NCBI GenBank assembly: GCA_018402765.1
Contig: JAGYIE010000003.1
Span: forward strand, 62,001-126,000
Direction of reading: 5' to 3'
Length of the DNA stretch: 64,000 nucleotides
Source of the DNA: Vicingaceae bacterium
GTDB taxonomy: Bacteria; Bacteroidota; Bacteroidia; Flavobacteriales_E; Vicingaceae
A model generated the notes under the pieces. That model was not told the DNA's origin. It worked only from the letters and a program-made list of their open reading frames with translations, and searched no databases. The translations under genes and the position numbers were made by a program. Every line of letters starts with the position of its first letter. Positions within the stretch are counted from its first letter, which is position 1. Positions 10,442-63,742 of this stretch are shown one piece after another.

Positions 10442-13400
10442 ATGACTGAAATAAAGAACAACTTTAAGGCTTCTATTCTTCTCTTCCTAATGTTAATATC
10501 ACCTTTTTTAAGTATCGGACAAAATACAAACTATAAAATTTCTCCTGCAATTCTTAAAAGCGAAACTCTTTTTAATCAAGATAATAAGAAATTTATCTTT
10601 TTTGAAGGTGCTGATTATCAATTGGAATTGAGCGATTTGCCTGTTAAGTTGATTCAGCTTCCGCTGTCTACAAATAATGAGATAAAACAAATCAGTTTTA
10701 AAAATACAATTTATAAAGAAGTAGAAGATCAAGACGTTTTATCGGTTTTAAGCAGTAATTCACTTTCAGCCTCGGTTAATATTGAGGTTAAGTATGGGTA
10801 TTTTAAGAAGAATAAGTTTGCATCGATTTCATTTGTTCCTTTTAGAATTAATTCACAAACTGGATTGATAGAGCAATTGATTGAATTTGAACTTGATTTT
10901 TCAACTACAACGTTGGCCTTAGCAAAGGTTCAAAAAGCAGCTTCTTTTTCAAATTCTTCCGTATTAGCTTCAGGAGAATGGTATAAAATTTCGGTTTCAA
11001 CAAGTGGAATTTTTAAATTGGATGCAGCGTTTTTTGAGAACATGGGATTGGATATTTCCACTATAGATCCAAGAACGATTAAATTGTATGGAAATGATCA
11101 GGGAATGTTAGCGGCGTTAAATTCTGAGAATTCTGTTGATGATTTGAAAGAGCTAGCTGTTAAATTCGATGGTGAGTCGGATGGCGTTTTTAATGCTTCT
11201 GACTATTTACTATTCTATGGTCAAGGGCCTCATGAGGTTTATTATGATTCGTCGCTTTCGCGTTTTCGTTTTCGCCAGCATTTGTATGAAGAAAAGTCAT
11301 ATTACTTTATAACATTTGGCGGTGTGCAAGGGAAGCGTGTAGCTGATCAATCGTCCTCTTCTGCGACTCCAACAAGATTAATTTCTACTTTTGATGATTT
11401 CAAACATTATGAAAAGGAGAAAATTAATTTAATTAAATCAGGTCAACTCTGGTTGGGTGAAGTTTATGATGTGACCAATAGTTATCAGTATTCTTTCGAT
11501 TTCCCCAATATAGATAATACAAAGCAGGCAATTTTAGAGGCTTCTTTTTATGTGCGGTCAGGTGTTGCAAGCAGGGTAGATTTTGGTGTTGGGGCTTCTA
11601 ATTTTACCATGAATTTAGGAACGGTTAATTTAAATAGATATGACACTCCTTTTGCTTCAGAAGCACGTTCAGTCTTTACGTTTACTCCAAATTCTTCTAA
11701 TCTGCAGGTTAATACAACATATAACAAGCCCCAAGCCTCATCAAAGGCCTGGCTAAACTATCTTTCTGTAAATCTATCAAGGAGATTAATTTTTAGCGGG
11801 AGTCAAATGGGGTTTAGGAATGTAAGTTCTGTTGGTGCCGGAGAGGTTTCTAGTTTTAATATTTCAGGCCAGTTGCAAAATGTCGATATATGGGATGTTA
11901 CTGACCCATTCGATGTAAAAAGACAAATGACTTCAAGCTCAGGTTCATCATTGCAGTTTTCTCTTGCTACTCCCATCCTTAGAGAGTTTATAGTTTTTGA
12001 GAATGGATACGAGGACGTAATATTCGAAGATAAGGTAGAAAATCAAAATTTACATCAATTGACAAATATCGATTATGTAATTGTTAGTCATCCACTATTT
12101 ATTGAACACGCGCAGCAACTAGCAAATTTTCATAGTAATCAAGGTTTAAGAGTTGAGGTTGTTACGCCACAGCAAGTTTACAACGAGTTTAGCGCAGGTT
12201 CTCAAGATCCTATAGCTATTCGTTCTTTACTTAGGATGCTTTATCAAAAAGCTACTGTTCCAGAAAATTTACCGAAGTATTTGTTATTATATGGAGATGG
12301 TTCATATGACCCTAAAGAAAGGCTGTCAGGTAATACCAATATGATAGTGACTTATCAAAGTCCAAATTCGGTGAGTCCTGTTGCGTCATTTGTTAGTGAT
12401 GAGTATATGGGTCTCTTAGATCCCAATGAAGGTAAATTTGGGTCTTTTGATAACGACATGTTGGATGTTGGAATTGGCCGGTTTCCAGTAAAAACATTAG
12501 CTGAGTCTCAAGCTGTATTGAACAAAACAATGGCGTATAATACAAGTGCTACTTTTGGAGATTGGAGAAATGAAGCTGTTTTTGTCGCAGATGATGAAGA
12601 TGGGACGCTACACATGAATCATTCCGCTATAGTTTCTAGAAATCTAGATTCCATTCCATTTTTCAATGTTGAGAAGTTATACCTTGATGCATTTCCACAA
12701 GTATCTACTCCTGGTGGAGATCGATATCCCCAAGCAAATATTGCCGTTAATTCAGCGATTAATAGTGGAAGTCTAATTGTAAACTATACAGGTCATGGTG
12801 GAGAAACCGGTTGGACTGCTGAGCGAGTTGTTGGGGTTAGTGATATAAACAGCTGGAATAACTCAAAACAGCTGTCTCTTTTTATAACAGCCACGTGCGA
12901 GTTTAGTCGATTTGATGACCCTTTCCGAAATTCAGGAGGAGAATTAGTGCTTCTAAATCCAAGAGGTGGAGGTATTGCACTAATGACAACTACTAGATTA
13001 GTATTTGCGACACCTAATTTGTATTTAAATGATACTTTGTATAAACGTATGTTTGAAAAAGTTAATGGCGAATATAAGAGACTTGGGGATGTTTTTGCTG
13101 AAACAAAAGCACAGCATTCAGGATCTACCAATGCAAAAAACTTTACCCTATTAGGAGATCCAGCTACTCGATTAGCAATACCACAATTTAACGTTGTAAC
13201 AACATCTATAAATGGAAATCCTATTTCGGGAAACGATACTTTAAAGGCTTTAAGTAAAGTGACCATATCAGGTGAAGTAAGGGATAAAAATGGAGCTCTA
13301 ATGACTAATTTTAATGGGTTGATTTATCCAACAGTTTTTGATAAAATCAAAACCTATAAAACACTAGACAACGATAATAACGGTCAGTACACCTATAAAC

Positions 13401-42694: not shown

Positions 42695-43693
42695 TTGAAA
42701 GTAAATAAAATCTTACATATAAGTCTATTAATTGGTTTAATCCTTTTTATTCTGCCTATCCACGGTTTTAATACTGAACACGATACATTAAAGGCAATTG
42801 TTATTAATTCGGACGCTCCATTTTCTAATAATATAAAAAATTTAACTGGAGAAGAGGTTATTCGATTAATCGATTCCCTCCTTGATTTAAAGCAACTTTC
42901 GGATGGAGTAATCGAGCAACTTACAGCCATAGTTGGAGAAATAGCTTTAAAAGAGGAGACGCCGATTCTTTTGTCAGGATTTTATGATGATTCTGAATAT
43001 CCATCAAACTCATTTTATGGTAATTGGGACAGTTATCAAATTCACCCACAGATTAATTCTTTTGAAGATAACATCAAATTGGTTCTTCAAGACACACTAA
43101 ACAATTGCTCCTTTTATCCACCATTAAAGGGGTTAATAACATCTAATTTTGGTTGGAGAGATGGAAGAAGTCACCATGGGATAGATATCGATTTACAAGT
43201 TTGGGATCCTGTCCATGCAGCCTTTGATGGTATGGTGAGAGTAGCGAGACATCACCCTACGTATGGTAGAGTAGTGATTGTTAGACATTACAATGGTTTA
43301 GAAACATTGTATGCTCATTTACACCGTCTCAAGGTAAAGCCTGGTGATGTTGTGGAAGCAGGGCAAGTAGTTGGGTTAGGAGGGAGTTCAGGTAGATCTA
43401 CTGGTAGTCATTTGCATTTTGAAACGCGTTTTAGAGGCCGCTCGTTAAATCCGCGTTCGTTTATTGACTTTAATAACAATAGATTAGTTAGCGATTCTAT
43501 CGTGCTTACCAAAAATAGATGGGATAACTTCAGCTGTTATCCTGCAGGAATAAATTATTATACGGTTCAGAAGGGCGATTTTTTGGTTAAAATTGCAAAT
43601 CGTTATGGTACGAGTGTACAGCGGTTGTGCGAACTTAATGGAATTGACCGTAAGTCTGCACTCAGAATCGGTAAAAAATTGCGCATTGACTAA
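42695..43693 (+). CDS. M23 (LytM-type) peptidase with LysM domain
   Basis: A 332-residue secreted protein read from a TTG start (KVNKILHISLLIGLILFILPIHGF signal). The M23 domain spans about residues 140-265. Its Zn ligands are His160 and Asp164 (SHHGIDIDL), and the catalytic His239-Leu-His241 lies in GSHLHFETRF. A C-terminal LysM module (about 287-330, YYTVQKGDFLVKIANRYGT and RLCELNGI) targets peptidoglycan. It likely cuts peptide crosslinks or activates amidases in the envelope. Followed 3 bases later by a small membrane protein gene. Confidence 0.9.
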   Translation: MKVNKILHISLLIGLILFILPIHGFNTEHDTLKAIVINSDAPFSNNIKNLTGEEVIRLIDSLLDLKQLSDGVIEQLTAIVGEIALKEETPILLSGFYDDSEYPSNSFYGNWDSYQIHPQINSFEDNIKLVLQDTLNNCSFYPPLKGLITSNFGWRDGRSHHGIDIDLQVWDPVHAAFDGMVRVARHHPTYGRVVIVRHYNGLETLYAHLHRLKVKPGDVVEAGQVVGLGGSSGRSTGSHLHFETRFRGRSLNPRSFIDFNNNRLVSDSIVLTKNRWDNFSCYPAGINYYTVQKGDFLVKIANRYGTSVQRLCELNGIDRKSALRIGKKLRID

Positions 43694-43696
43694 GCC

Positions 43697-44032
43697 ATGT
43701 CACTAACCCACATCAACTTTCAAGATCATCCGACCAATCGGAACAAAATGGTTTTCTTTTTTAAGGATCCTAAACAGGCTGTATATTTTCAAAATTTATT
43801 AAATGAAAATAAAATTAAGCATGAACGACAAATAGACGAAGAGGGCGATGGACGTGTCTATTTTGGAGTTATGAAAAGTGATTTCAAATTGGCAAAAAGA
43901 TTAAATTATTTGACCTATGGTCATTTTAGAGAGCCATTTATTACCGTTCCTTTTTTTAAGTATTTATTGTTAATAATTACTATTACCGCTATTTTCTTAG
44001 CCTTTTATGGTGCTATTACTTCTGCAAAATAG
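43697..44032 (+). CDS. Small protein with a C-terminal membrane helix, signal-transducing-domain-like
   Basis: This 111-residue protein has an N-terminal soluble part (MVFFFKDPKQAVYFQNLLNE with HERQIDEEGDGRVYFGVMKS), faintly like the DUF2007 'signal-transducing protein' fold, and one membrane helix at about 86-106. Family assignment is tentative. It lies 3 bases after the M23 peptidase and 40 before the outer-membrane barrel, so the three may be co-transcribed. Confidence 0.55.
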   Translation: MSLTHINFQDHPTNRNKMVFFFKDPKQAVYFQNLLNENKIKHERQIDEEGDGRVYFGVMKSDFKLAKRLNYLTYGHFREPFITVPFFKYLLLIITITAIFLAFYGAITSAK

Positions 44033-44072
44033 ACTGCCGTTTTTGCCGTTATTTATCTTAATTTTATAGTCT

Positions 44073-44816
44073 ATGAGGATAAAAATTTCATTTGCTTCTT
44101 TCTTGTTCTTCGCCTTTGCAAGTGTATTTGCTCAAAAAAATGTGACCACTTTTGGTGTGCAAATTAAACCTGTAATTCCACTAAGTTTTATTGGAGCTTC
44201 TGAAGAGACGATTATAGATAACAATACAAGTTTTACGTTGACACCCAGATCAGGATATAGTTTTGGTATGGTTGCCCGCCATGGCTTCACTAAAATGCTT
44301 TCTATAGAATCAGGAATTAACTTTACGACACGTAAATTTGATATAACAATTCAAGACGGGAACTTTAGTGGTCAAACGGATATAAAGTTTGTTACGTATG
44401 ATATCCCGTTATTGGCTTTGCTTTATATACAGCTTGGAGAGCAAATGTATATGAATGCTGCCTTTGGAGCTTCTATAGACTTTTTGCCATCTGATTGGGA
44501 ATCATCAGGAACTTATTTTAGACATTACTCATTTAGAAAAGAATGGATTATTCCTAGCATGCTAGCGAATATAGGATTTGAGTACCGGACATTTGATAAA
44601 GGATATTTCTATTTGGGTGCATCTTACCACAGGCCGTTTCGGGATTTAACTACTACTAATGTGGCCTATTATAATGAAGCCAATAATGTAAATAACATAA
44701 ATGGCTTCGATGCTTTAGCATCTTTTAACTTAGATGGAAGTTATTTGACCTTAGATTTGCGTTACTTTTTTCACGAAGACCCTATTCGGAAAACAAATCG
44801 AAAAAGAAAAAAATAA
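44073..44816 (+). CDS. PorT-family outer-membrane beta-barrel protein
   Basis: A 247-residue protein with a signal peptide (about 1-20, ending VFAQ). Its strand-rich body resembles PorT-like OMP_b-brl proteins: QIKPVIPLSF, FGMVARHGFTKMLSIESGINFT, MYMNAAFGASIDFLPSDW and a final strand YLTLDLRYFFHEDP. The basic tail KTNRKRKK is unusual for a barrel ending in a beta-signal. No specific partner is known. Confidence 0.75.
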   Translation: MRIKISFASFLFFAFASVFAQKNVTTFGVQIKPVIPLSFIGASEETIIDNNTSFTLTPRSGYSFGMVARHGFTKMLSIESGINFTTRKFDITIQDGNFSGQTDIKFVTYDIPLLALLYIQLGEQMYMNAAFGASIDFLPSDWESSGTYFRHYSFRKEWIIPSMLANIGFEYRTFDKGYFYLGASYHRPFRDLTTTNVAYYNEANNVNNINGFDALASFNLDGSYLTLDLRYFFHEDPIRKTNRKRKK

Positions 44817-44822
44817 ACCAAT

Positions 44823-44927
44823 ATGATTGAAGACGGAACTCATTTTCTTACAGAACAACTTCTTAAATTAGGAATGTTCATCATAGAATCTAACCTCGGT
44901 GATCATTTGAGGTTGTTGAGGAATTAA
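44823..44927 (+). CDS. Short 34-codon frame of doubtful reality
   Basis: Begins ATG, reads MIEDGTHFLTEQLLKLGMFI to LLRN and stops. It lies between the barrel gene and the oxidoreductase in the 137-base gap. No homologue recognised; it could be a remnant gene tail or chance. Confidence 0.15.
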   Translation: MIEDGTHFLTEQLLKLGMFIIESNLGDHLRLLRN

Positions 44928-44953
44928 TTTCCTAAACCACTTATCTTGCAGGC

Positions 44954-45985
44954 GTGATAGAGCATCTTCAATTACGCATTCGGGAAGTTATTCAGGAAAC
45001 ATCTGATAGCAAGACGTTTATCTTTGAAAATAAAGATTTAAACTATCAGGCAGGTCAGTTTCTAACTTTTTTAATCCCTTCGGGTATTTCAACTATCCGG
45101 AGGGCTTATTCTTTTTGCACCGCTCCGCAGGTGGATGAATTTCCTGCTGTAACAGTAAAACGGGTGGCGAATGGTGCCGGTTCAAGATATATTCTCGACA
45201 ACTGGAAAACCGGAGATCTTGTAGAATGCATAAAGGCTACCGGAAAATTTACACTTTCGAAAGAAGATGTAAATGAATTAGTACTTTTCGCTGCTGGCAG
45301 CGGAATTGTGCCAATCTTAGCAATAATAAAACAAGCTTTGCATGATCATAACATCAAAAAGATTCATCTATTCTATTCAAACCGCTCAGAAAACGCTACA
45401 ATCTTCAAAGATGAAATCACCAAACTAGAAGCAAATCATAAAGAGAAACTAATTGTTACTTGGTTCTTTAGCAATTCATTCAATATTAGCAAAGCCAGGA
45501 TAAATGCAGAATTTGTTGACTCATACTTTAAAAACCAAGTAAAAAGTAACATAACTCATGTTCATGTGTTTGCCTGTGGACCAGAATCTTATATGTATTT
45601 GGCGGAGGTAAGATGCCTCTTTGCAGGTATTCCTAAAGATAATTATCACCAAGAAGTTTTTTTCAGAGAAGAAAGCTCAAGTCTTAAACCTAACTCATAT
45701 AAAAAAGGTGATTTTGATATACTCATTGAAAGAGAAGGAAAATCATATTCATTTCAAATACCCGGAAACAGAACTATCCTTTCGCAAGCCATAAAAAACA
45801 ATATACCCATTCCTTGGTCATGCTCTAGCGGAAGATGTAGCGCCTGCATGGTAAAATTGAAACAAGGAGATATTTATATGTCTAGAAACGAAGTCCTTAC
45901 AGAAAGCGATTTGCAAAAAGGCTATATCCTAACATGTACTGGATACCCAGTTAGCGGTCCTTTAATTTTACAATCAAAGTCTTAA
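44954..45985 (+). CDS. Ferredoxin--NAD(P)H-type oxidoreductase (PaaE/Hmp-like, FAD and 2Fe-2S)
   Basis: A 343-residue three-domain flavo-iron-sulfur protein from a GTG start. It contains a FAD domain (1-100; RAYSFCTAP), an NAD(P)H domain (100-230; AAGSGIVPILAI and FACGPESYMYLAEVRC) and a C-terminal plant-type 2Fe-2S ferredoxin (about 253-343). The cluster cysteines are in SCSSGRCSACMVKLK plus the late ILTCTGYP. This is the layout of PaaE and related electron-transfer components. The partner oxygenase is not in the window, so the substrate pathway is unknown. Confidence 0.85.
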   Translation: MIEHLQLRIREVIQETSDSKTFIFENKDLNYQAGQFLTFLIPSGISTIRRAYSFCTAPQVDEFPAVTVKRVANGAGSRYILDNWKTGDLVECIKATGKFTLSKEDVNELVLFAAGSGIVPILAIIKQALHDHNIKKIHLFYSNRSENATIFKDEITKLEANHKEKLIVTWFFSNSFNISKARINAEFVDSYFKNQVKSNITHVHVFACGPESYMYLAEVRCLFAGIPKDNYHQEVFFREESSSLKPNSYKKGDFDILIEREGKSYSFQIPGNRTILSQAIKNNIPIPWSCSSGRCSACMVKLKQGDIYMSRNEVLTESDLQKGYILTCTGYPVSGPLILQSKS

Positions 45986-46179
45986 ATATTCACTTAATAT
46001 TTAAATAATGTAAAAATTACAAAATAGTAAACTTCATAACATAGCGGTAGAGTAATAGTTACTTTCTTTTATAGTTCAGTTTATAATTGAATCGGAATTT
46101 TACATAAAGTAGTTTTAACCTTCTTACTCCTAAATGAAAGGGTTAAGGTTTTTAAATGCAAAGTGTGATTCTATCTGTT

Positions 46180-49100
46180 ATGAAAAAGATGTTTAACTTC
46201 CAAAAGCTTACGAGCAATAAACTAATTCAAAGTTTATTTTTTGTTTTTATTTTATCATCAAATAATCTAACCGCTCAAATCCTAAATCAGACCTTTAGAA
46301 CAGGCTCAATACCTTCAGGATGGTCACAAAGCTCAGTTACATTCACAACTTCTGCAAGTGGATACGCTAATTTCACTAATACTTCGGCAGTTTTAACAAG
46401 TCCGGTTTTTGATGGATCGTCCTTTGCTTCAATTAATATCAATTTTAATGTAGCAAAATTTGGCTCTGGCGGCAATGGCCCTATCACTGTTGAATACTCT
46501 CTCAATGGTGGTTCTACTTGGAGTAATTTAGGTAACTCTCCCACTCCTACCTCTTCAACATACCTTTCGGCTTCTTTATCTATATCCTCTGTTTCAAATA
46601 ATATGAGAATAAGATTTAGAAGATTAAATAGCCCATCGCAGAAAAGGTTTAGAGATTTAGTAGTATCAGGAGTAGGTTCAGCTCTATGCTCAGCTCCAAG
46701 TTCTCAGGCCTCAAATATTTCATTTAGCAACGTTCTGGATATTTCAATGGATGTTTCATGGAATAATGGAAATGGCGCTGGGAGGGTAGTATTGATGAAT
46801 ACATCCAATACTTTCACTGCTCCTTCTAATGGCTCAAATCCAACTGCAAATACAACCTACACCAGTGGACAACAAGTAATCTATAATGGAACCGGCAATT
46901 CAGTTTCTGTAAGTGGGCTTTCAGCTTCTACAACATATTGGTTTAGAGTTTACGAATATTGTTCCCCCGACAGGGTTTATAACTCAGGCACTGCTAGCAA
47001 TAATCCAAGAAGCCAGGCAACAACCGCACCTACTTTTACTCCTTCATTAACTGCTGGAAGTCTTAGCCCCTTTGGGAATGAATGTATAGCAGGGACATAC
47101 GGCCCAAATACATTCACAATTTCGGGTAGTAATTTAACTGCTGCTAATAATGTCACCGTTGGAGCTCTATCTGGTTATCAATTTGCAACCTCAGCCGGAG
47201 GTCCTTACTTAAACAGTTTGAGCATTTCTCAACCCGGAGGTACGTTTAACCAAACCATTTATGTTAGATTCTTACCTGTGGCAGCGGTCAATTACAATGG
47301 CAATATTGCCATCGGAGGAGGAGGCGCTTCAAGCGTCAATGTTTTAGCTTCTGGAACAGGGATCAATACTCCACCAACTGCACTGTCAGGCGCATCTTCA
47401 TCAATAACCTATGCCGCAGCAACTATAGAAGGAAGCATAAGTGACATAGGTTGCTCATCAATCTCCGCCTATGGCGTTGAATATAGCACATCATCAGGCT
47501 TTACTCCCGGAACAGGAACTCAAGTTCCTTCTTCTAATCTAAGTGCAGGTAATTTCAGCTCCAACTTAACTGGTCTTGATGCCAATCAAACCTACTACTA
47601 CCTTGCTTATGCAACAAATTCGGGTGGAACAGCATACGGCTCCGAATCATCATTTACAACTTTAAATTTAGATGCTCCTATAGCAAATCCAGGTTCAGGA
47701 ATAGGCGATTTTGCTTTCATGGCCAATTGGGATCCGGTTATTGGCGCTACAGGCTATCGCCTGGATGTTAGTACGACCCCTTTTACTAGCGCTAATGCAA
47801 CTGACTTGTTCATATCTGAGTATGTAGAAGGTTCTGCAAATAATAAATACATCGAAATTTTTAATGGTACCGGAGCGCCGGTTAATCTTAGCAATTACCG
47901 ACTTCGTCTTTTTTCTAACGGAGCAGCAAGCCCTAACAATGATGTTTTACTATCGGGAACTTTAGCAAATAATGACGTTATCGTTTATGAAAATTCTTCA
48001 GCTGCAATCTATGCAGGAATTCCTAATGCCGCTATTAACTTTAATGGAGACGATGCAGTTGCTTTATGGAAAATTTCAACTTCTTCATACGTAGATATCT
48101 TCGGTGTTATTGGAGATGATCCGGGTTCTCAATGGACTTTAGGCGGTAACAATACTGCCGATCAAACCCTGGTTAGAAATGCTGATATTTCGGGCGGGGT
48201 AACTGTAAATCCATCAGGAACCGGACCTGGCGCTTTCTTAACCTTAGCTACTGAGTGGACTGAGTTTCCTCAAAATAACGTTTTGGATTTAGGTTCGCAT
48301 ACCTTCAATTCAGGTGGTGCTACCTATGTTCCCGGATATCAAGATCTTGCAGTAGCAGGAATATCGCAACTTGTTTCAGGTTTATCGCCTAATACCCAAT
48401 ATTACTATAGAGTAAGAGCCGTGTCCTCTACCAGTACTTCCGATAACTCAAATGTTATTTCTGTTTTAACTACAAATACGGGTTGTGCCTCTGGTGTCAA
48501 TATCAGTTCTTTTTCACCAACAAGCGGTCCTGAAGGCACAAGGGTAACTATCACAGGAACTAACTTCAGCACTGCAACTTCGGTTACCTTCAATAATATT
48601 CCTGCTACTTACTTTACAATTATTAGCAGCACTGAAATTGAAGCTCAGGTTCCAGCAACAACATCAGGCATAATCAGAGTTGCTGATAGTGGCGGATGTT
48701 TCGATAATTCTTCCGGTTCATTTACATTCATTGGAAATACAGGAACCTGTATTGGAGTGCTCAGCGATATAATTATCTCTGAAGGATACGACCCGCAAAG
48801 TGGCATTAACCATTACATTGAAATTTATAATGGAACAGGAAATGCCGTAGATTTAAATACAACAGCCGATTATTCGCTGAGACTTCTAAATAAAAGTTCT
48901 GTCTCTGACCCATCGCCTACTACTTATAACCTCGATATCACAGGTGTAATTAATCCTGGCGAAACGAAAGTTTACTTTGCTGGTGCTAACGGTGGTTTAG
49001 CATCCCTTCCTGCTCTTGGGTTTAACAACGGGTTTAATGAATGGGATGAAATAATTCTTTTAAAAGACAATGTGATTATCGATAGAGTTCAATTTCCTAA

Positions 49101-51618
49101 CAACGTTGGATATAATTATCGTCGCTTAAATACGGTAACAGGACCAAATACTACCTATACCGCTGCCGAATGGAATAGGATTGAAACAGGCGAAAACACC
49201 TCTGATATTGGAATATTTGTGGCTAGCTCTGACTATATCATTTCTACTCAACCACCAGACGCTGCTGCAGAGCCCTGCGATCCTTTCGATTTAATTGTAC
49301 AGAGTTCAAATCCGGCTGTTGGCTATCAATGGTATAAATTAAATTCTTTAGGGAATTGGATTGCAGTAATTCCTTCTGTAGAAGTTAGTGGTTACGACAC
49401 CAATCAACTCACAATCGACCCCTCTATAGGATATGATGGAGTTCAATTCTATTGCCAAATCAGCCGAGCTCTTTGCACTAAACGTTCTAATGCCGTTCAG
49501 TTTGATGAAATCCCTAATCCAAGAAGGTATTTCCGCTCCGCGGGAAGTGGCAGCTGGGTAGGAGACAATATTTGGGAATATGCTTCAACACCTGTGGGCC
49601 CATGGTCTACCTCATGTTTTCCTCCTTCTGCCGAAACATCCGACGAAATTGTCATTCAAAATGGTCATTCGGTAATAGTAAACTCGGCTGATATAACTAT
49701 TGACCAAGTGATTATAGAACTTGGAGGAAATTTAAGCTTGAGTGCTTCTGATGCGATAACTTTTGCTAATGGTCCGGGTGTAGACTTTATTATTGAAGGA
49801 ACGTTTACCGACAACACCAATTCTGGCGGTGGCAATGGTGTATTTATGAATTCAGGAGCTACTTGGCAAATGGGAAATTCTGGTACATTAATTAAAACCA
49901 ACAACTCTTCATTTGCCGTTTATCGCGATAATTATGAAGGAGGCATGGCAAACATTCCTGCAACATCAACAGTAATAATTCGCAGTGTTTCAGGCTCTAA
50001 TCCTTCATATACTGCCGTGGGAAATACATTTTACCCTAATCTAACCTTCGAATCTACTGGCGGCAACTGGAATCCTGTTGTTCTTGGAAGCCGATTTAAC
50101 GGTGCATCCGATTTCCCAACGATTAAAGGAAACTTAGATATTGGTGGTAGTGGTTTAGGGATAGTAACTATCTATAATCAAAATACAAACGCTACTCCTT
50201 TAACTGTTGAAGGTGACGTAATTGTGAGAACAGGAAATACGCTTACAAATGCCGGAACTGTTAATGGTACAGGCTTCGATTTCAAAGGAAACGTTTCTGT
50301 AGATGGTACTTTTAATGTAAATTCAACTACAAATCAGAATTACCTCTTATTAAGCGGGAATTCTACTCAATCTCTCTCTGGATCTGGTATAATCAGTGTT
50401 TTTAATCTTAGAGTTAATAATAGCTCTACTTTTGGTATCGACCTTCAAAGAAACTTGACCGTTGTTAATGAACTACAAATGATAGATGGAAACATTCAAA
50501 TAGGTTCTAATCTGCTCACACTTGGATTTAATACTACCAACATTGGTAGTCTCAATCACACCGATGGTTATGTAATTGGAAGAATGAGAAGGTGGTTTAA
50601 TGGAACTAATGCTGGTGATGTATCAGGAAAGTTCCCTATGGGAATTCTTTCGGCAGATTATTACGATAGATCTGTCTTAATTGAATACAACTCTGCTCCA
50701 ACAACTCCTGGTCACCTCACTGTTGAGTATATTAACTCGCCTATGGCAAATGTAAATGCCGGAATTCCTATTGCCCAGGCCAATACTGGTGGAACAACTT
50801 TCGATGTTGTGTATGTTGAAGATGAAGGTTTCTGGCAAATTGATAATCAAACAGGAACCCTCACTGATGGTTTGTATTCTATTTCACTCACAGGTGAAGA
50901 GGTTCAATCTATAACCGACGTAAGTAACTTAACCCTCTTAAAGCGAGTGGGTTCAGGACCTTGGACTTGTCCTGGTAATCACATTATTGCTGCAGGCCCG
51001 GTGAGCAAACCTATTGTTTCTCGTTCTGCTGTTTTTGGTTTCTCGAATTTCGGGTTTGGTTCAGGAGCAAGTAACCCTTTACCAATAGAATTGTTAAGTT
51101 TCACAGCGACCCCTCAGAACGATATTGTAAATCTTGATTGGGTCACAGGCTCAGAAATCAACAATCAATTTTTTACTGTAGAAAGAAGTATCGACGCTCT
51201 AAATTTTGAAGAAGTTCTTAGGAAAGATGGTATTGGCAACTCATCTGCAACTAATTATTATAGTGATGTTGATACAAAACCATTAATGGGATTATCGTAT
51301 TACAGATTGAAACAAACAGATTACAATGGAAATTTCAGCTATTCGCAAATTGTTCCTGTAAGTTTTAATCAAACTAAAACGGTTCAGTGGATGAATATAA
51401 ATCCCTCAAATGGAAATATAAATGGATTTAGCAACAGTGATATAGAATTTACAAGCTACCGCATCTACTCTTTAGGAGGGAAAATAATTTCGGCAGGAGC
51501 CTTAAATTCATTAGACGGATCATTTAATATTAATTCTGGCATAGCTTCAAAAGGGCTCTATTTCGTAGAATTACTTGATAAAAATGAGCAACCAACTGTA
51601 TTCAAACTTGTGTTCTAG
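46180..51618 (+). CDS. Very large T9SS-secreted adhesin-like protein
   Basis: The start is taken at the Met opening MKKMFNFQKLTSNKLIQSLF, eight codons inside the longest frame (46156); the signal peptide ends near NNLTAQ. The 1,812-residue product has fibronectin-like and lamin-tail modules (first near residues 550-660: DLFISEYVEGSANNKYIEIFNG). An IPT/TIG-like segment (about 786-860: SFSPTSGPEGTRVTITGTNF), a second lamin-tail copy (about 871-965) and an Ig-like region follow. The tail (IEFTSYRIYSLGGKIIS to SKGLYFVELLDKNE) is a T9SS sorting-type C-terminus but reads INPSNGNI where PNP is usual. It is likely a cell-surface or secreted adhesive protein. Residue positions count from 46156. Confidence 0.85.
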   Translation: MKKMFNFQKLTSNKLIQSLFFVFILSSNNLTAQILNQTFRTGSIPSGWSQSSVTFTTSASGYANFTNTSAVLTSPVFDGSSFASININFNVAKFGSGGNGPITVEYSLNGGSTWSNLGNSPTPTSSTYLSASLSISSVSNNMRIRFRRLNSPSQKRFRDLVVSGVGSALCSAPSSQASNISFSNVLDISMDVSWNNGNGAGRVVLMNTSNTFTAPSNGSNPTANTTYTSGQQVIYNGTGNSVSVSGLSASTTYWFRVYEYCSPDRVYNSGTASNNPRSQATTAPTFTPSLTAGSLSPFGNECIAGTYGPNTFTISGSNLTAANNVTVGALSGYQFATSAGGPYLNSLSISQPGGTFNQTIYVRFLPVAAVNYNGNIAIGGGGASSVNVLASGTGINTPPTALSGASSSITYAAATIEGSISDIGCSSISAYGVEYSTSSGFTPGTGTQVPSSNLSAGNFSSNLTGLDANQTYYYLAYATNSGGTAYGSESSFTTLNLDAPIANPGSGIGDFAFMANWDPVIGATGYRLDVSTTPFTSANATDLFISEYVEGSANNKYIEIFNGTGAPVNLSNYRLRLFSNGAASPNNDVLLSGTLANNDVIVYENSSAAIYAGIPNAAINFNGDDAVALWKISTSSYVDIFGVIGDDPGSQWTLGGNNTADQTLVRNADISGGVTVNPSGTGPGAFLTLATEWTEFPQNNVLDLGSHTFNSGGATYVPGYQDLAVAGISQLVSGLSPNTQYYYRVRAVSSTSTSDNSNVISVLTTNTGCASGVNISSFSPTSGPEGTRVTITGTNFSTATSVTFNNIPATYFTIISSTEIEAQVPATTSGIIRVADSGGCFDNSSGSFTFIGNTGTCIGVLSDIIISEGYDPQSGINHYIEIYNGTGNAVDLNTTADYSLRLLNKSSVSDPSPTTYNLDITGVINPGETKVYFAGANGGLASLPALGFNNGFNEWDEIILLKDNVIIDRVQFPNNVGYNYRRLNTVTGPNTTYTAAEWNRIETGENTSDIGIFVASSDYIISTQPPDAAAEPCDPFDLIVQSSNPAVGYQWYKLNSLGNWIAVIPSVEVSGYDTNQLTIDPSIGYDGVQFYCQISRALCTKRSNAVQFDEIPNPRRYFRSAGSGSWVGDNIWEYASTPVGPWSTSCFPPSAETSDEIVIQNGHSVIVNSADITIDQVIIELGGNLSLSASDAITFANGPGVDFIIEGTFTDNTNSGGGNGVFMNSGATWQMGNSGTLIKTNNSSFAVYRDNYEGGMANIPATSTVIIRSVSGSNPSYTAVGNTFYPNLTFESTGGNWNPVVLGSRFNGASDFPTIKGNLDIGGSGLGIVTIYNQNTNATPLTVEGDVIVRTGNTLTNAGTVNGTGFDFKGNVSVDGTFNVNSTTNQNYLLLSGNSTQSLSGSGIISVFNLRVNNSSTFGIDLQRNLTVVNELQMIDGNIQIGSNLLTLGFNTTNIGSLNHTDGYVIGRMRRWFNGTNAGDVSGKFPMGILSADYYDRSVLIEYNSAPTTPGHLTVEYINSPMANVNAGIPIAQANTGGTTFDVVYVEDEGFWQIDNQTGTLTDGLYSISLTGEEVQSITDVSNLTLLKRVGSGPWTCPGNHIIAAGPVSKPIVSRSAVFGFSNFGFGSGASNPLPIELLSFTATPQNDIVNLDWVTGSEINNQFFTVERSIDALNFEEVLRKDGIGNSSATNYYSDVDTKPLMGLSYYRLKQTDYNGNFSYSQIVPVSFNQTKTVQWMNINPSNGNINGFSNSDIEFTSYRIYSLGGKIISAGALNSLDGSFNINSGIASKGLYFVELLDKNEQPTVFKLVF

Positions 51619-51688
51619 GTAGTCTTAAAATCATGAATTAACTTCTCTATACGCTTCGAAGAGCAAAACTTTACACCTACCCTAATCT

Positions 51689-51717
51689 AAAAGCTGCTTC
51701 AATTTGAGGCGGCTTTT
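51689..51717 (+). terminator. Terminator after the large T9SS gene
   Basis: aaaagctgc (51689-51697) pairs with gcggctttt (51709-51717), one G-U pair, about 70 bases after the stop. Confidence 0.65.
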
Positions 51718-51865
51718 GTGTTAATTATACACTTTTTCTCTCTTATTGAATTTAATGTTTTGAATAGCATATCTACTACTTTCCAACTATATACTCATAA
51801 TGATTTGCCGTTCGTCCTATCAATTAATCGATTTAATAAGAAAATGAATTTTTCTACCATCTAGT

Positions 51866-52087
51866 TTACAAAAGATTCTTTATAGATTTCTCACTATATA
51901 TTTGATATTGAGTGTATGCTTTCGCAGCTCTAGACCTCATCATCTCTTTTGATTCATTATTAACATAACTTGTAATTGCATTATGCATTTTAAATGCCTT
52001 GGGACCCATTAAGCCAGATGTCCTAACTAGTAGATTTACATACGCTGTTTTCAACAACGGAGAAAAGAATCGCTTGCTATAAATAGC
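51866..52087 (-). pseudogene. Unrecognised gene tail, possible remnant
   Basis: A minus-strand frame stays open from a stop at 52088 to 51866: YSKRFFSPLLKTAYVNLLVR, TSGLMGPKAFKMHNAITSYVN, and KAYTQYQIYSEKSIKNLL. The composition looks protein-like and the frame has only a TTG as a possible start at 52057, so it may be the surviving 3' part of a gene. No family recognised. The remaining sequence from 51718 to 51865 shows nothing I can support. Confidence 0.25.
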
Positions 52088-52107
52088 TCAAATAATTGCA
52101 CATAAAA

Positions 52108-52136
52108 AAGGCTGCCTCTACAAGAGAAACAGCCTT
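52108..52136 (-). terminator. Terminator of the minus-strand T9SS-tail remnant
   Basis: aaggctg (52108-52114) pairs with cagcctt (52130-52136). On the minus strand a T run follows, 25 bases beyond the remnant's stop. Confidence 0.65.
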
Positions 52137-52160
52137 CCTACGTTAAACTAATCCAAATTC

Positions 52161-52350
52161 TTAGTGCTGAATAACCAGTTTCTTGGTTACTGCAATATTG
52201 CCTTGTAGAAATTCTACAAAATAAACTCCGTTAGCTAGATTTGAAACATCTACAGAAGTCAAACTTTTACCTTGAATGCTTTCAGAATAAACTAAATTCC
52301 CAACTGCATTGAAGACAGATAAGTTAACATCTGCATGGTCTATGTTTAAG
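52161..52350 (-). pseudogene. T9SS type A sorting-domain fragment
   Basis: On the minus strand, in the 5' to 3' direction, the frame reads KQGLNIDHADVNLSVFNAVG, NLVYSESIQGKSLTSVDVSN, LANGVYFVEFLQGNIAVTKK and LVIQH then a stop (TAA at 52163-52161). This is the C-terminal part of a T9SS sorting domain; the usual N-terminal PNP start is missing. It has its own terminator, so it is the 3' end of a once-intact secreted-protein gene whose 5' part is lost at the junction with the MscS gene near 52350. Confidence 0.8.
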
Positions 52351-52378
52351 CCTTGTTTTATTAGGCGTATTACTAGTC

Positions 52379-53530
52379 GTGCTTTGTCTGCTGGCAGATC
52401 GGATTTTACGCTTAGTAATGGTTAGAATAATTACCACCCTAGCAAGAAAAAGTAAAACAGAATGGGATGATATTTTAGTAGAAAAGAAGTTCTTTTCGGC
52501 AGTTGCTCACTTAGCTCCTGTTTTGCTTATTGAAATTCTAGTACCCCTATTTTTTAAAGACTTTCCAACATTTGTCGATTATGTTATTCGTGCAAATGAT
52601 GTATATCTTATAGCAATAGTGCTGATTATGGTAAATCGGTTTTTAAATGCTGCACAACTCATTCTCTCTCGATTAGATTTATTTAAAGACAAGCCCTTAG
52701 GAAGCTATTTTCAATTAACTAAAATTGTTATTGGCATTATTGCAGGGGTACTAATGTTGTCTGTTTTGGTAAGTAAGTCGCCCATTTATTTCTTCAGTGC
52801 CTTTGGGGCAATGACGGCAGTAATTCTGTTTGTCTTTAAAGACACTATTTTAGGGTTTATTGCTTCAATTCAATTGTCTGCCAATGATATGATTCGTGTG
52901 GGAGATTGGGTGCAAATGGATAAGTATGGAGCTGATGGTGATGTGTTAGAGATTAATCTGACTACAGTTAAAGTAAAAAATTGGGACAAAACAATTAGTA
53001 CTGTTCCAACCTACTCGTTTATTTCGGATTCATTTAAGAATTGGAGAGGAATGCAGGAAACCGGAGCGAGGAGAATAGCTCGTTCTGTATACATAAACAT
53101 TAGCACTGTTAAGTTTGCTACACCTGAAATGATTGATCGATTTAAGAAGATCCATATTATTAGTAAATATGTGGAAGATAAACAGCAAGAAATTGAAGCA
53201 TATAACAAAGAGCAAGCTGCTGATACTTCTCATGTTTCTAATGGCAGAAGAATGACCAATTTGGGTACATTTAGAGCCTATGCCCAACGGTATTTAGAGC
53301 GTCACCCTAAAGTAGATAAGAACTTAACTATAATGGTTCGCCAATTAGAGCCAAACGAAAAAGGGGTTCCTGTGCAGATTTATTGTTTTTGCAATGATAT
53401 TGCTTGGGAAAATTATGAGGCAGTGCAGTCCGATATAATGGACCATTTGCTTTCAGTAGTTCCTCAATTTGATTTACAAGTATTCCAAAATCCATCTGGT
53501 TCTGATTTTAGGAAATTGCAGGGGGAGTAA
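52379..53530 (+). CDS. MscS-family (YbdG/YnaI-like) channel gene, 5' truncated
   Basis: The reading frame is open from 52328, with only a GTG at 52379 as start. The upstream residues LVLLGVLLVVLCLLADRI clearly form the first membrane helix, so translation from the GTG begins inside that helix. The rest is complete and close to E. coli YbdG: KTEWDDILVEKK, two more helices, the channel helix LSANDMIRVGDWVQMDKYGADGDV, then TTVKVKNWDKTISTVPTYSF and RRMTNLGTFRAYAQRYLERHPK and the tail. It is a mechanosensitive channel for osmotic adaptation if intact. With no start codon or upstream promoter seen, it is probably a truncated gene. Confidence 0.85.
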   Translation: MLCLLADRILRLVMVRIITTLARKSKTEWDDILVEKKFFSAVAHLAPVLLIEILVPLFFKDFPTFVDYVIRANDVYLIAIVLIMVNRFLNAAQLILSRLDLFKDKPLGSYFQLTKIVIGIIAGVLMLSVLVSKSPIYFFSAFGAMTAVILFVFKDTILGFIASIQLSANDMIRVGDWVQMDKYGADGDVLEINLTTVKVKNWDKTISTVPTYSFISDSFKNWRGMQETGARRIARSVYINISTVKFATPEMIDRFKKIHIISKYVEDKQQEIEAYNKEQAADTSHVSNGRRMTNLGTFRAYAQRYLERHPKVDKNLTIMVRQLEPNEKGVPVQIYCFCNDIAWENYEAVQSDIMDHLLSVVPQFDLQVFQNPSGSDFRKLQGE

Positions 53531-53665
53531 AGGTAGTTTGTCTATTTACCGTTTATGCAATGTAATTTCATTCTAACGCTCAATCCTTATCGTATAAAAG
53601 CCAATACCTAAATCTTAATCATGATTCTGGGAGAAGACTTACATGCTAATATAATCTAAAAACTA

Positions 53666-61992: not shown

Positions 61993-61998
61993 GCTTTA

Positions 61999-63612
61999 CT
62001 AGCGTTTAACAATCAATTTGTGGGTTAACTTTTCAGAGGCAGTTTCTATTGAAATTAAATAAACACTGCCTTTGGCTAAATTCGTTATGGTTTTCTTGAA
62101 ATTATTTGGTCCAGGATTTAGGCCTGTTAAAATAGTTTTTTCAATTAAGGCTCCCTTAGTGTCGACAATAGAGATGGTTACATTCTCTTTTTTTGATAGA
62201 TTAAATAAAATATTTAGTTCTCCATTATTGGGATTAGGGTAGATGGTAAGGTTTAATACACTTACACTAGATTTATTTAGGTTGTCAATAGATAGAGGAC
62301 TTGGTTTTTTGATATAAACCTTAAATATTTGACTACTTGCACTACTTTGGGTTCCTGTATTTGTGAAAAATATGTTGGGCTGAGTACTACTGATACCGCC
62401 ATATATGTAACCAATTAACGTGCTATCTGTAGTTAAGCTGTCTAATTTAAAAACCTCATTTCTATAGTGCGGGAAATTAACATTCGGAATAAACTCAGCA
62501 CCTGCACCCAGCAGAGATGGCATTTCTACAGGAAGTTTATATTCTGCCATGCTTCCTGAGGAGTCTCTGGTTACCCGCGCTATTGTATTTACAAAGGGAA
62601 CATTATTATCTTGTACCAAAGTGCCTTGATTATCATAAAATTGGGCAATACCGCCAAAGAATACCGTATGCATTTCATTTTTTTGTTCTGAATAGATAGG
62701 CAAAACAGGGCAATGGTAGTGATTGTAGTATTGCTGAAATGTATTGTTTACAGTGTATGAGTTTGAGTCTACTGTCACTGAATTGAGAAAGGGTAAGTTA
62801 GCATTTTGTTGGAAAACTCCTGAAAATAGTGTAATTCCTTCTTCTCCATTCGGCAGAATTTGTGGTTCTGCATTATAATCCCTTCTGCGAAGATTGGCTG
62901 CGTCTATTGAGGGACTTAAGTGAGTGATAGAAATGGTAGTTCCATTATCAGTTAAGTTAAATTTTCTGATCGCATTAGTATATTCTTGAATAAATCCTGG
63001 GCCATTAGTTGGTCCCATTGGATTATATCGCCCAATAAACTTGTGTCCCCCTAATAGATAAAAGGTGTTGCCTATTTTTTCGAGTCTTCCGCCAGTTACT
63101 TGAAATTGGTTGTCGGTAATTTGTCGAAAATAGCTAGTGAAGCTAGTGTTGTTAATCACTGCATTTATAACATCAGAAACCTTTACCGCAGTTAAGTTAT
63201 TATAAGTTGTATGATCACCAGCGGTAGCACTATAGCCATAGCCTCCTAAGATATATAAATAGTCTCCATCTTGATAGAACTCCATATTAGTTGAGCTTAA
63301 CTGTTCTTGCAGAGCTGTTGGTAGTGAGGTTAAGGGAGCCGACCATTTTTGCTGAGTAGTAGGATCTACAACAATTAACTGATTATTATGACCTGCGATA
63401 TCAAATGCAGCAAACGGCTGTCTTTGATGTAAACCGTCTAGTCGTCCACCTATAATCAGCCATTTTCCATTGTCTTGTCCTACAGCAAAAGATTGGATAC
63501 CACCAAGGCCCGATATATTCATTGGCTCAATAAAAACTTCAAATGGTGCAGTTTGAGAATAACTGAAGTAGGAAATAAGGTAGGAAACTGTTATTAGTAA
63601 ATATTTTTTCAT
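61999..63612 (-). CDS. T9SS-secreted Kelch-like protein
   Basis: A 537-residue secreted protein. Signal peptide (about 1-19, SYFSYSQ), then Kelch-type repeats of beta-strands (IGGRLDGLHQRQPF, LYILGGYGYSATAGDH, FYLLGGHKFIGRYNPMG, YIYGGISSTQPN). The C-terminal T9SS type A sorting domain (about 455-537) has the LTIYPNPNNGELNI start, the VDTKGALIEKTIL block and the end SEKLTHKLIVKR. Such proteins are delivered to the surface by the T9SS encoded earlier. The propeller likely binds a partner or carbohydrate, not resolved. Confidence 0.85.
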   Translation of the reverse strand: MKKYLLITVSYLISYFSYSQTAPFEVFIEPMNISGLGGIQSFAVGQDNGKWLIIGGRLDGLHQRQPFAAFDIAGHNNQLIVVDPTTQQKWSAPLTSLPTALQEQLSSTNMEFYQDGDYLYILGGYGYSATAGDHTTYNNLTAVKVSDVINAVINNTSFTSYFRQITDNQFQVTGGRLEKIGNTFYLLGGHKFIGRYNPMGPTNGPGFIQEYTNAIRKFNLTDNGTTISITHLSPSIDAANLRRRDYNAEPQILPNGEEGITLFSGVFQQNANLPFLNSVTVDSNSYTVNNTFQQYYNHYHCPVLPIYSEQKNEMHTVFFGGIAQFYDNQGTLVQDNNVPFVNTIARVTRDSSGSMAEYKLPVEMPSLLGAGAEFIPNVNFPHYRNEVFKLDSLTTDSTLIGYIYGGISSTQPNIFFTNTGTQSSASSQIFKVYIKKPSPLSIDNLNKSSVSVLNLTIYPNPNNGELNILFNLSKKENVTISIVDTKGALIEKTILTGLNPGPNNFKKTITNLAKGSVYLISIETASEKLTHKLIVKR

Positions 63613-63742
63613 TGTGTTTGGTTTGTCAATTTTTTTGCTAAACTACTATATTGAAACAAGTAGAATTGTAACATTTATTACATAAGAAATTTCCTTTATT
63701 TACTAGTAAATTAAGAAAGCATTTAGAATTTTTTAGATAAAA

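Follow-up and report, generated by a model that had tools for sequence, protein, structure and literature searches.

A mechanosensitive channel gene split by a putative chromosomal fragment from a distant member of the Bacteroidota

The window analysed here (the whole stretch of 64,000 nucleotides from a Vicingaceae bacterium) contains, near position 52350, a point at which two truncated genes of opposite orientation meet (Table 1). On the plus strand, an MscS-type frame that is open to 53527 resembles its relatives only from about 52352-52361 onward, within the first membrane stretch, and its first in-frame ATG, GTG or TTG is the GTG at 52379. This fragment is over the cut-off for PF00924 (MS_channel_2nd; 60.2 bits vs. 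20.2) and slightly under it for MS_channel_3rd (20.6 vs. 21). All 17 relatives extracted, which are those with a long match among 40 other genomes searched, have at least 36 more residues before the position of the GTG, and the N-terminal part is therefore incomplete in the window frame. The gene is presumably of the YbdG type. Its beta-domain, over the PF00924 cut-off, and its 87% identity to the orthologue of a same-genus genome (G001) place it with the MscS-family channels; it differs from them in being split, with about nine codons and the native start apart from the rest.

On the minus strand, the open frame 52164-52418 encodes a T9SS type A sorting domain (PF18962, E = 1.1e-11, 45.3 bits vs. 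27; TIGR04183, 39.3 bits vs. 23). In the 75-position profile of PF18962, the match starts at position 10, at about 52347-52349. The tail at 52164-52349 is like other domains of this type in being over both curated cut-offs, but it is cut before profile position 10 and has no cargo protein ahead of it. An earlier note on this DNA had described a sorting domain that loses its 5' part at about 52350, together with a plus-strand MscS gene that keeps its first membrane stretch and lacks its native start. Both descriptions agree with the present results, and the breakpoint that joins the two genes is real; it is, however, the right edge of an insertion and only one of two junctions.

Table 1. Features around the split mscS gene (positions in the window; genes X, Y and Z are named after their counterparts in genome G129, and "foreign" denotes a putative origin)
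Feature	Position	Strand	Evidence
Native gene upstream of mscS (outer-membrane beta-barrel-like), the final intact gene ahead of the insertion	44073..44816	+	Matches the G001 gene directly upstream of mscS
mscS codons 1-18 (5' fragment)	44823..44876	+	G001 alignment; codons 17-18 also match donor gene Y
Left join	44870..44877		G001 similarity ends, G129 Y similarity begins
Putatively foreign gene Y, 3' end, in frame with the mscS fragment; stop 44925-44927	44871..44927	+	16/18 residues identical to the G129 Y C-terminus
Putatively foreign PaaE-like ferredoxin/FAD reductase, 343 aa, intact	44954..45985	+	76% aa identity to G129; Fer2, NAD_binding_1 and FAD_binding_6 over cut-off
Putatively foreign T9SS-type surface protein, 1820 aa, intact; lamin-tail and other surface domains	46156..51618	+	LTD over cut-off; sorting tail under cut-off
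Putatively foreign gene Z remnant, last ~80 codons	51857..52100	-	58.8% aa identity over 80 residues to G129 Z
Putatively foreign T9SS gene X, 3' end: sorting domain and stop, last ~62 codons	52161..52349	-	PF18962/TIGR04183; G129 X
Right join (the junction of the earlier note)	52347..52361		T9SS similarity up to 52349; mscS similarity from 52352-52361
mscS 3' fragment, ~codon 28 to stop, without native start	52352..53530	+	86.8% aa identity to G001 over 378 residues; PF00924

The missing N-terminus of mscS is found 7.5 kb upstream of the 3' part, directly after the native upstream gene. The 18 codons that begin with the ATG at 44823 are identical to codons 1-18 of the G001 mscS at 8 of 18 positions, with a BLOSUM62 score of 48 that was matched by none of 100,000 shuffles of the window peptide. 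Similarity to mscS ends after codon 17-18 and restarts at about codon 28 at 52352, so that about nine codons are gone. The upstream gene itself is slightly under the cut-off for PF13568; it is 59% identical to its G001 counterpart at the amino acid level, while the genes on both sides are 87% identical.

G001, the one same-genus genome with a long mscS match (the other, G002, is 69% complete and gives a weak match only), has the undisturbed form of this locus. Its mscS is intact (419 aa) and lies a few bases after a 256-aa gene, with nothing between the two points that are 7.5 kb apart in the window. This 256-aa gene and the two genes before it match window positions 42782-44783, and pieces of the window from about 31.2 to 64.0 kb are collinear with G001, with some other gaps on both sides. 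Given the intact mscS of G001, the collinear flanks and the surviving mscS start, the stretch from about 44873 to 52350 is therefore an insertion that splits mscS, with about nine codons removed. Comparison with close relatives, which the earlier note had recommended, was thus decisive, since G001 supplies both the intact gene and the empty site. The insertion is the derived state, because the other relatives have the long form of mscS. Orthologues of the gene are 45-66% identical between genera of the bacterium's own family and 40-43% identical in two other families of the class that have a long match. A scan of named genomes for mscS returned no near relative (best match 66%), the bacterium's own record possibly lying outside that set.

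Two further differences from G001 lie in this part of the window. Between mscS and the acyl-CoA dehydrogenase gene, G001 has a 609-aa protein with a C-terminal part like that of T9SS proteins where the window has about 135 bp (53531-53665), which makes a second presence/absence difference next to mscS. Farther downstream, about 1.7 kb (61994-63739) is without a DNA counterpart in G001, in which the matches on both sides nearly touch; this is possibly another insertion or deletion.

The contents of the insert have a counterpart in G129, a genome of the same class and another family. There, Y, the reductase, a large T9SS surface protein, Z and X occur in the order and orientation of the insert, with Z and X on the minus strand. 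The insert aligns with this block in three pieces at 80.9%, 73.5% and 72.4% nucleotide identity, the 73.5% piece being window 46686-52100. The insert runs from the last ~18 codons of Y to the last ~62 codons of X, and each end falls within a donor gene that G129 has in full. The X tail is 56.9% identical to G129 X over 58 amino acid residues, which is below the identity of the reductase; it also has many diverged relatives in the bacterium's own family (best, 44%) and is uninformative on origin. G129 Y narrowly passes the NCBIfam cut-off for a sorting domain (26 vs. 23 bits), and Pfam gives no such call. The G129 counterpart of the 1820-aa surface protein (L149:11871-17486) is broken into several frames, while the window copy is a single open frame. 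Compared with G129, the Z region of the window is shorter by about 650 bp. In G129 this stretch is flanked by an imperfect short direct repeat, which suggests a slippage-type deletion.

Of 46 genomes of the order, only the bacterium's own has the reductase at E <= 1e-80; the other 45, which belong to a single family, contain no close homologue. Among the more complete genomes of the order the count is 1 of 32. Across 395 genomes of the class, three have it at E <= 1e-75: the bacterium's own genome, G129 (76% aa identity) and G321 (48%). The latter two belong to one genus of another family, in which the reductase occurs in 2 of 10 genomes. The 76% identity of the reductase to its G129 counterpart is higher than that of mscS orthologues, both between genera of the own family (45-66%) and in other families of the class (40-43%). 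Other PaaE-like genes, present in 11 relatives, are at most 37% identical to the insert reductase, and the other PaaE-like copy of the own genome is 32% identical to it. No DNA match of the insert was detected elsewhere in the own genome, in G001 or in G002, by a search that also missed the short mscS flanks in G001 and is hence blind to short or diverged copies. Partial stretches like Y occur in 6 of 13 own-family genomes searched, corresponding to its N-terminal part in G007, G013 and G016, to a region near its C-terminus in G000 and G009, and to both in G010. Three of these stretches (L155, L156 and L157, in G007, G010 and G016) comprise about 140-150 aa that are 42-45% identical to the N-terminal part of G129 Y, the rest of Y not being shared. 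The insert has a G+C content of 0.379, its flanks 0.349 and 0.362, and the G129 region 0.385, values that are weakly suggestive of, and compatible with, a foreign insert. On the best reading of these comparisons, the insert would be DNA of a distantly related member of the Bacteroidota, a relative of G129. Because its ends lie inside Y and X, it would be a plain fragment of a donor-type chromosome.

The sequence at the two joins bears on how such a fragment could have been inserted. The window, G001 and G129 all have AGG at the left join (44870-44872), and at the right join nothing clear is shared. As G001 and G129 are proxies for the true parents, no microhomology is claimed. There is no direct repeat of at least 7 bp at the two joins (words under 7 bp were outside the search) and no target duplication of that length was seen. 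A 9-bp word occurs in both end regions (44826-44834 and 52308-52316), as does an 8-bp inverted word (44939-44946 and the 52323-52330 region), each lying some 40 bases or farther from at least one of the joins. An element with terminal repeats was considered and rejected, since none of the repeats listed for 44700-52550 (20 of 35 direct families and 25 of 28 inverted pairs) pairs the joins. Insertion at a tRNA gene was likewise rejected, there being no tRNA in the window. As for vehicles, 11 pattern matches in viral contigs include none related to the reductase, and the 1176 matching plasmid records are all below 60% identity (33.5% for the best of eight listed). No recombinase domain was found with Pfam in the reductase, the surface protein, the Z remnant or the X tail. 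Ku was not found in G000, G001 or G129 (0/3), and among 14 controls only B. subtilis was positive. The ComEC family is present in all three genomes, but also in 10 of the 14 controls, and is no evidence of competence.

Taken together, these data favor, with a probability of roughly 80%, a ~7.5-kb chromosomal fragment of a distant member of the Bacteroidota that would have been inserted at mscS codons ~17-28 by illegitimate recombination, removing about nine codons. A contiguous stretch of chromosome from a relative of G129 would have arrived as plain DNA, and both of its ends would have been joined by recombination with little or no homology, without a transposase or an integrase; insertion between codons ~17 and ~28 would then have taken the intervening codons out. 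Illegitimate recombination fits because no recombinase domain, direct repeat of 7 bp or more at the joins, tRNA, DNA match elsewhere in the own genome, viral relative, close plasmid relative or Ku was found, and because target bases were lost. Double illegitimate recombination has been described in natural transformation of Acinetobacter baylyi (Hulter and Wackernagel, 2008, as presented in PMC4437187 and PMC13344027). Going by those accounts, the present locus is similar in that a foreign segment is integrated without a homologous anchor, but it differs in being a natural case in the Bacteroidota, about 7.5 kb in length and deduced from sequence. Homology-facilitated illegitimate recombination (de Vries and Wackernagel, 2002, as presented in PMC9711863, PMC13344027 and PMC4437187) is described as depending on a homologous anchor at one end. 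It is similar, as far as these accounts go, in that foreign chromosomal genes are captured without mobile-element enzymes, but no anchor was found in the window, where just the three bases AGG are shared at the left join.

An unlikely variant is that a larger insertion carried the whole of X, and that a later deletion of the 5' part of X and of about nine mscS codons made the junction at 52350. The absence of the 5' part of X is in keeping with this, the deletion in Z shows that such events have occurred in the block, and part of the deletion idea of the earlier note would be kept. It needs an extra step, however, and nothing in the sequence calls for one. That the insert is the remnant of a mobile element, with a decayed end and with its transposase or integrase supplied from elsewhere or since deleted, is quite unlikely. 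A clean multi-gene insertion into a gene is what an element could produce, and the deletion inside Z shows that the block has lost sequence. However, the insert begins and ends within donor genes that G129 has in full, and the target has lost about nine codons instead of showing the duplication expected of an element. The remnant would also have neither a recombinase domain, nor a 7-bp direct repeat at its joins, nor a further copy in its own genome, and none of seven scanned neighbour proteins in G129 matches a recombinase model.

An assembly artefact, in which the contig of another organism was joined into mscS, is very unlikely. Though the nearest relative of the insert does belong to another family, this would need mscS to have been misjoined twice, at points about nine codons apart, with the order and orientation of the flanks kept, in a genome that is 99.78% complete, has 0.05% contamination and consists of 16 contigs. 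The earlier note had offered, besides misassembly, a deletion between divergent genes or an inversion endpoint; neither is supported, and an insertion that splits mscS was absent from its list. A deletion between two divergent native genes is hardly tenable: it would account for two genes that lack their 5' ends at one point, but the beginning of mscS is still present at 44823-44876, G001 shows which gene natively lies upstream, and the T9SS gene is not a neighbour of mscS there, its tail belonging to a foreign-type block that is collinear with G129 and ends at this point. A simple inversion was rejected, since both parts of mscS are collinear with G001.

Under the preferred reading of an inserted chromosomal fragment, the local gene order has consequences for the native operon. 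The left join is in frame, and the frame opened by the mscS start continues through the final codons of Y to the stop at 44925-44927. The 26 bases from this stop to the start of the reductase equal the spacing in G129 (10533 to 10560), and the reductase occupies the former place of mscS in the native gene row. With the left join in frame, a 34-codon mscS-Y fusion would be part of native operon transcripts, and the putatively foreign reductase would follow it after 26 bases.

The 3' part of mscS, in turn, shows no visible decay. Among 146 columns that are invariant in nine relatives, none is changed in the window alone, two are changed in G001 alone and 10 in both, and such columns cannot tell a recent loss from a gene still in use. 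A sigma-70-type scan of 51550-52460 gave no promoter-like site (shuffle mean 3.6), Bacteroidota promoters being outside that model. The fragment retains neither its start codon nor its operon position, and it most likely represents a young pseudogene; the alternative is that a shortened product is still in use, with which the unchanged columns would agree equally.

The event is a clear natural example of a kind that is already known. Gene trees are the usual basis for inferring that plain chromosomal DNA has passed between distant bacteria without the enzymes of mobile elements. Here the empty site, the filled site and a donor-type locus are all visible, and the two joins can be located to within about 8 and 15 bases. 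It is possible, though doubtful, that the capture was more than destructive. In one event, a foreign electron-transfer protein would have replaced a mechanosensitive channel in the final position of the native operon, with the donor's 26-base spacing kept; moreover, a T9SS tail may be encoded by each of the two cut donor genes (clearly so in X), a possible sign that sorting-domain ends are favored points of breakage or joining in the Bacteroidota. The target is still legible as a young split gene, and the locus offers a natural example for how foreign fragments join a chromosome and whether they take over a local operon.
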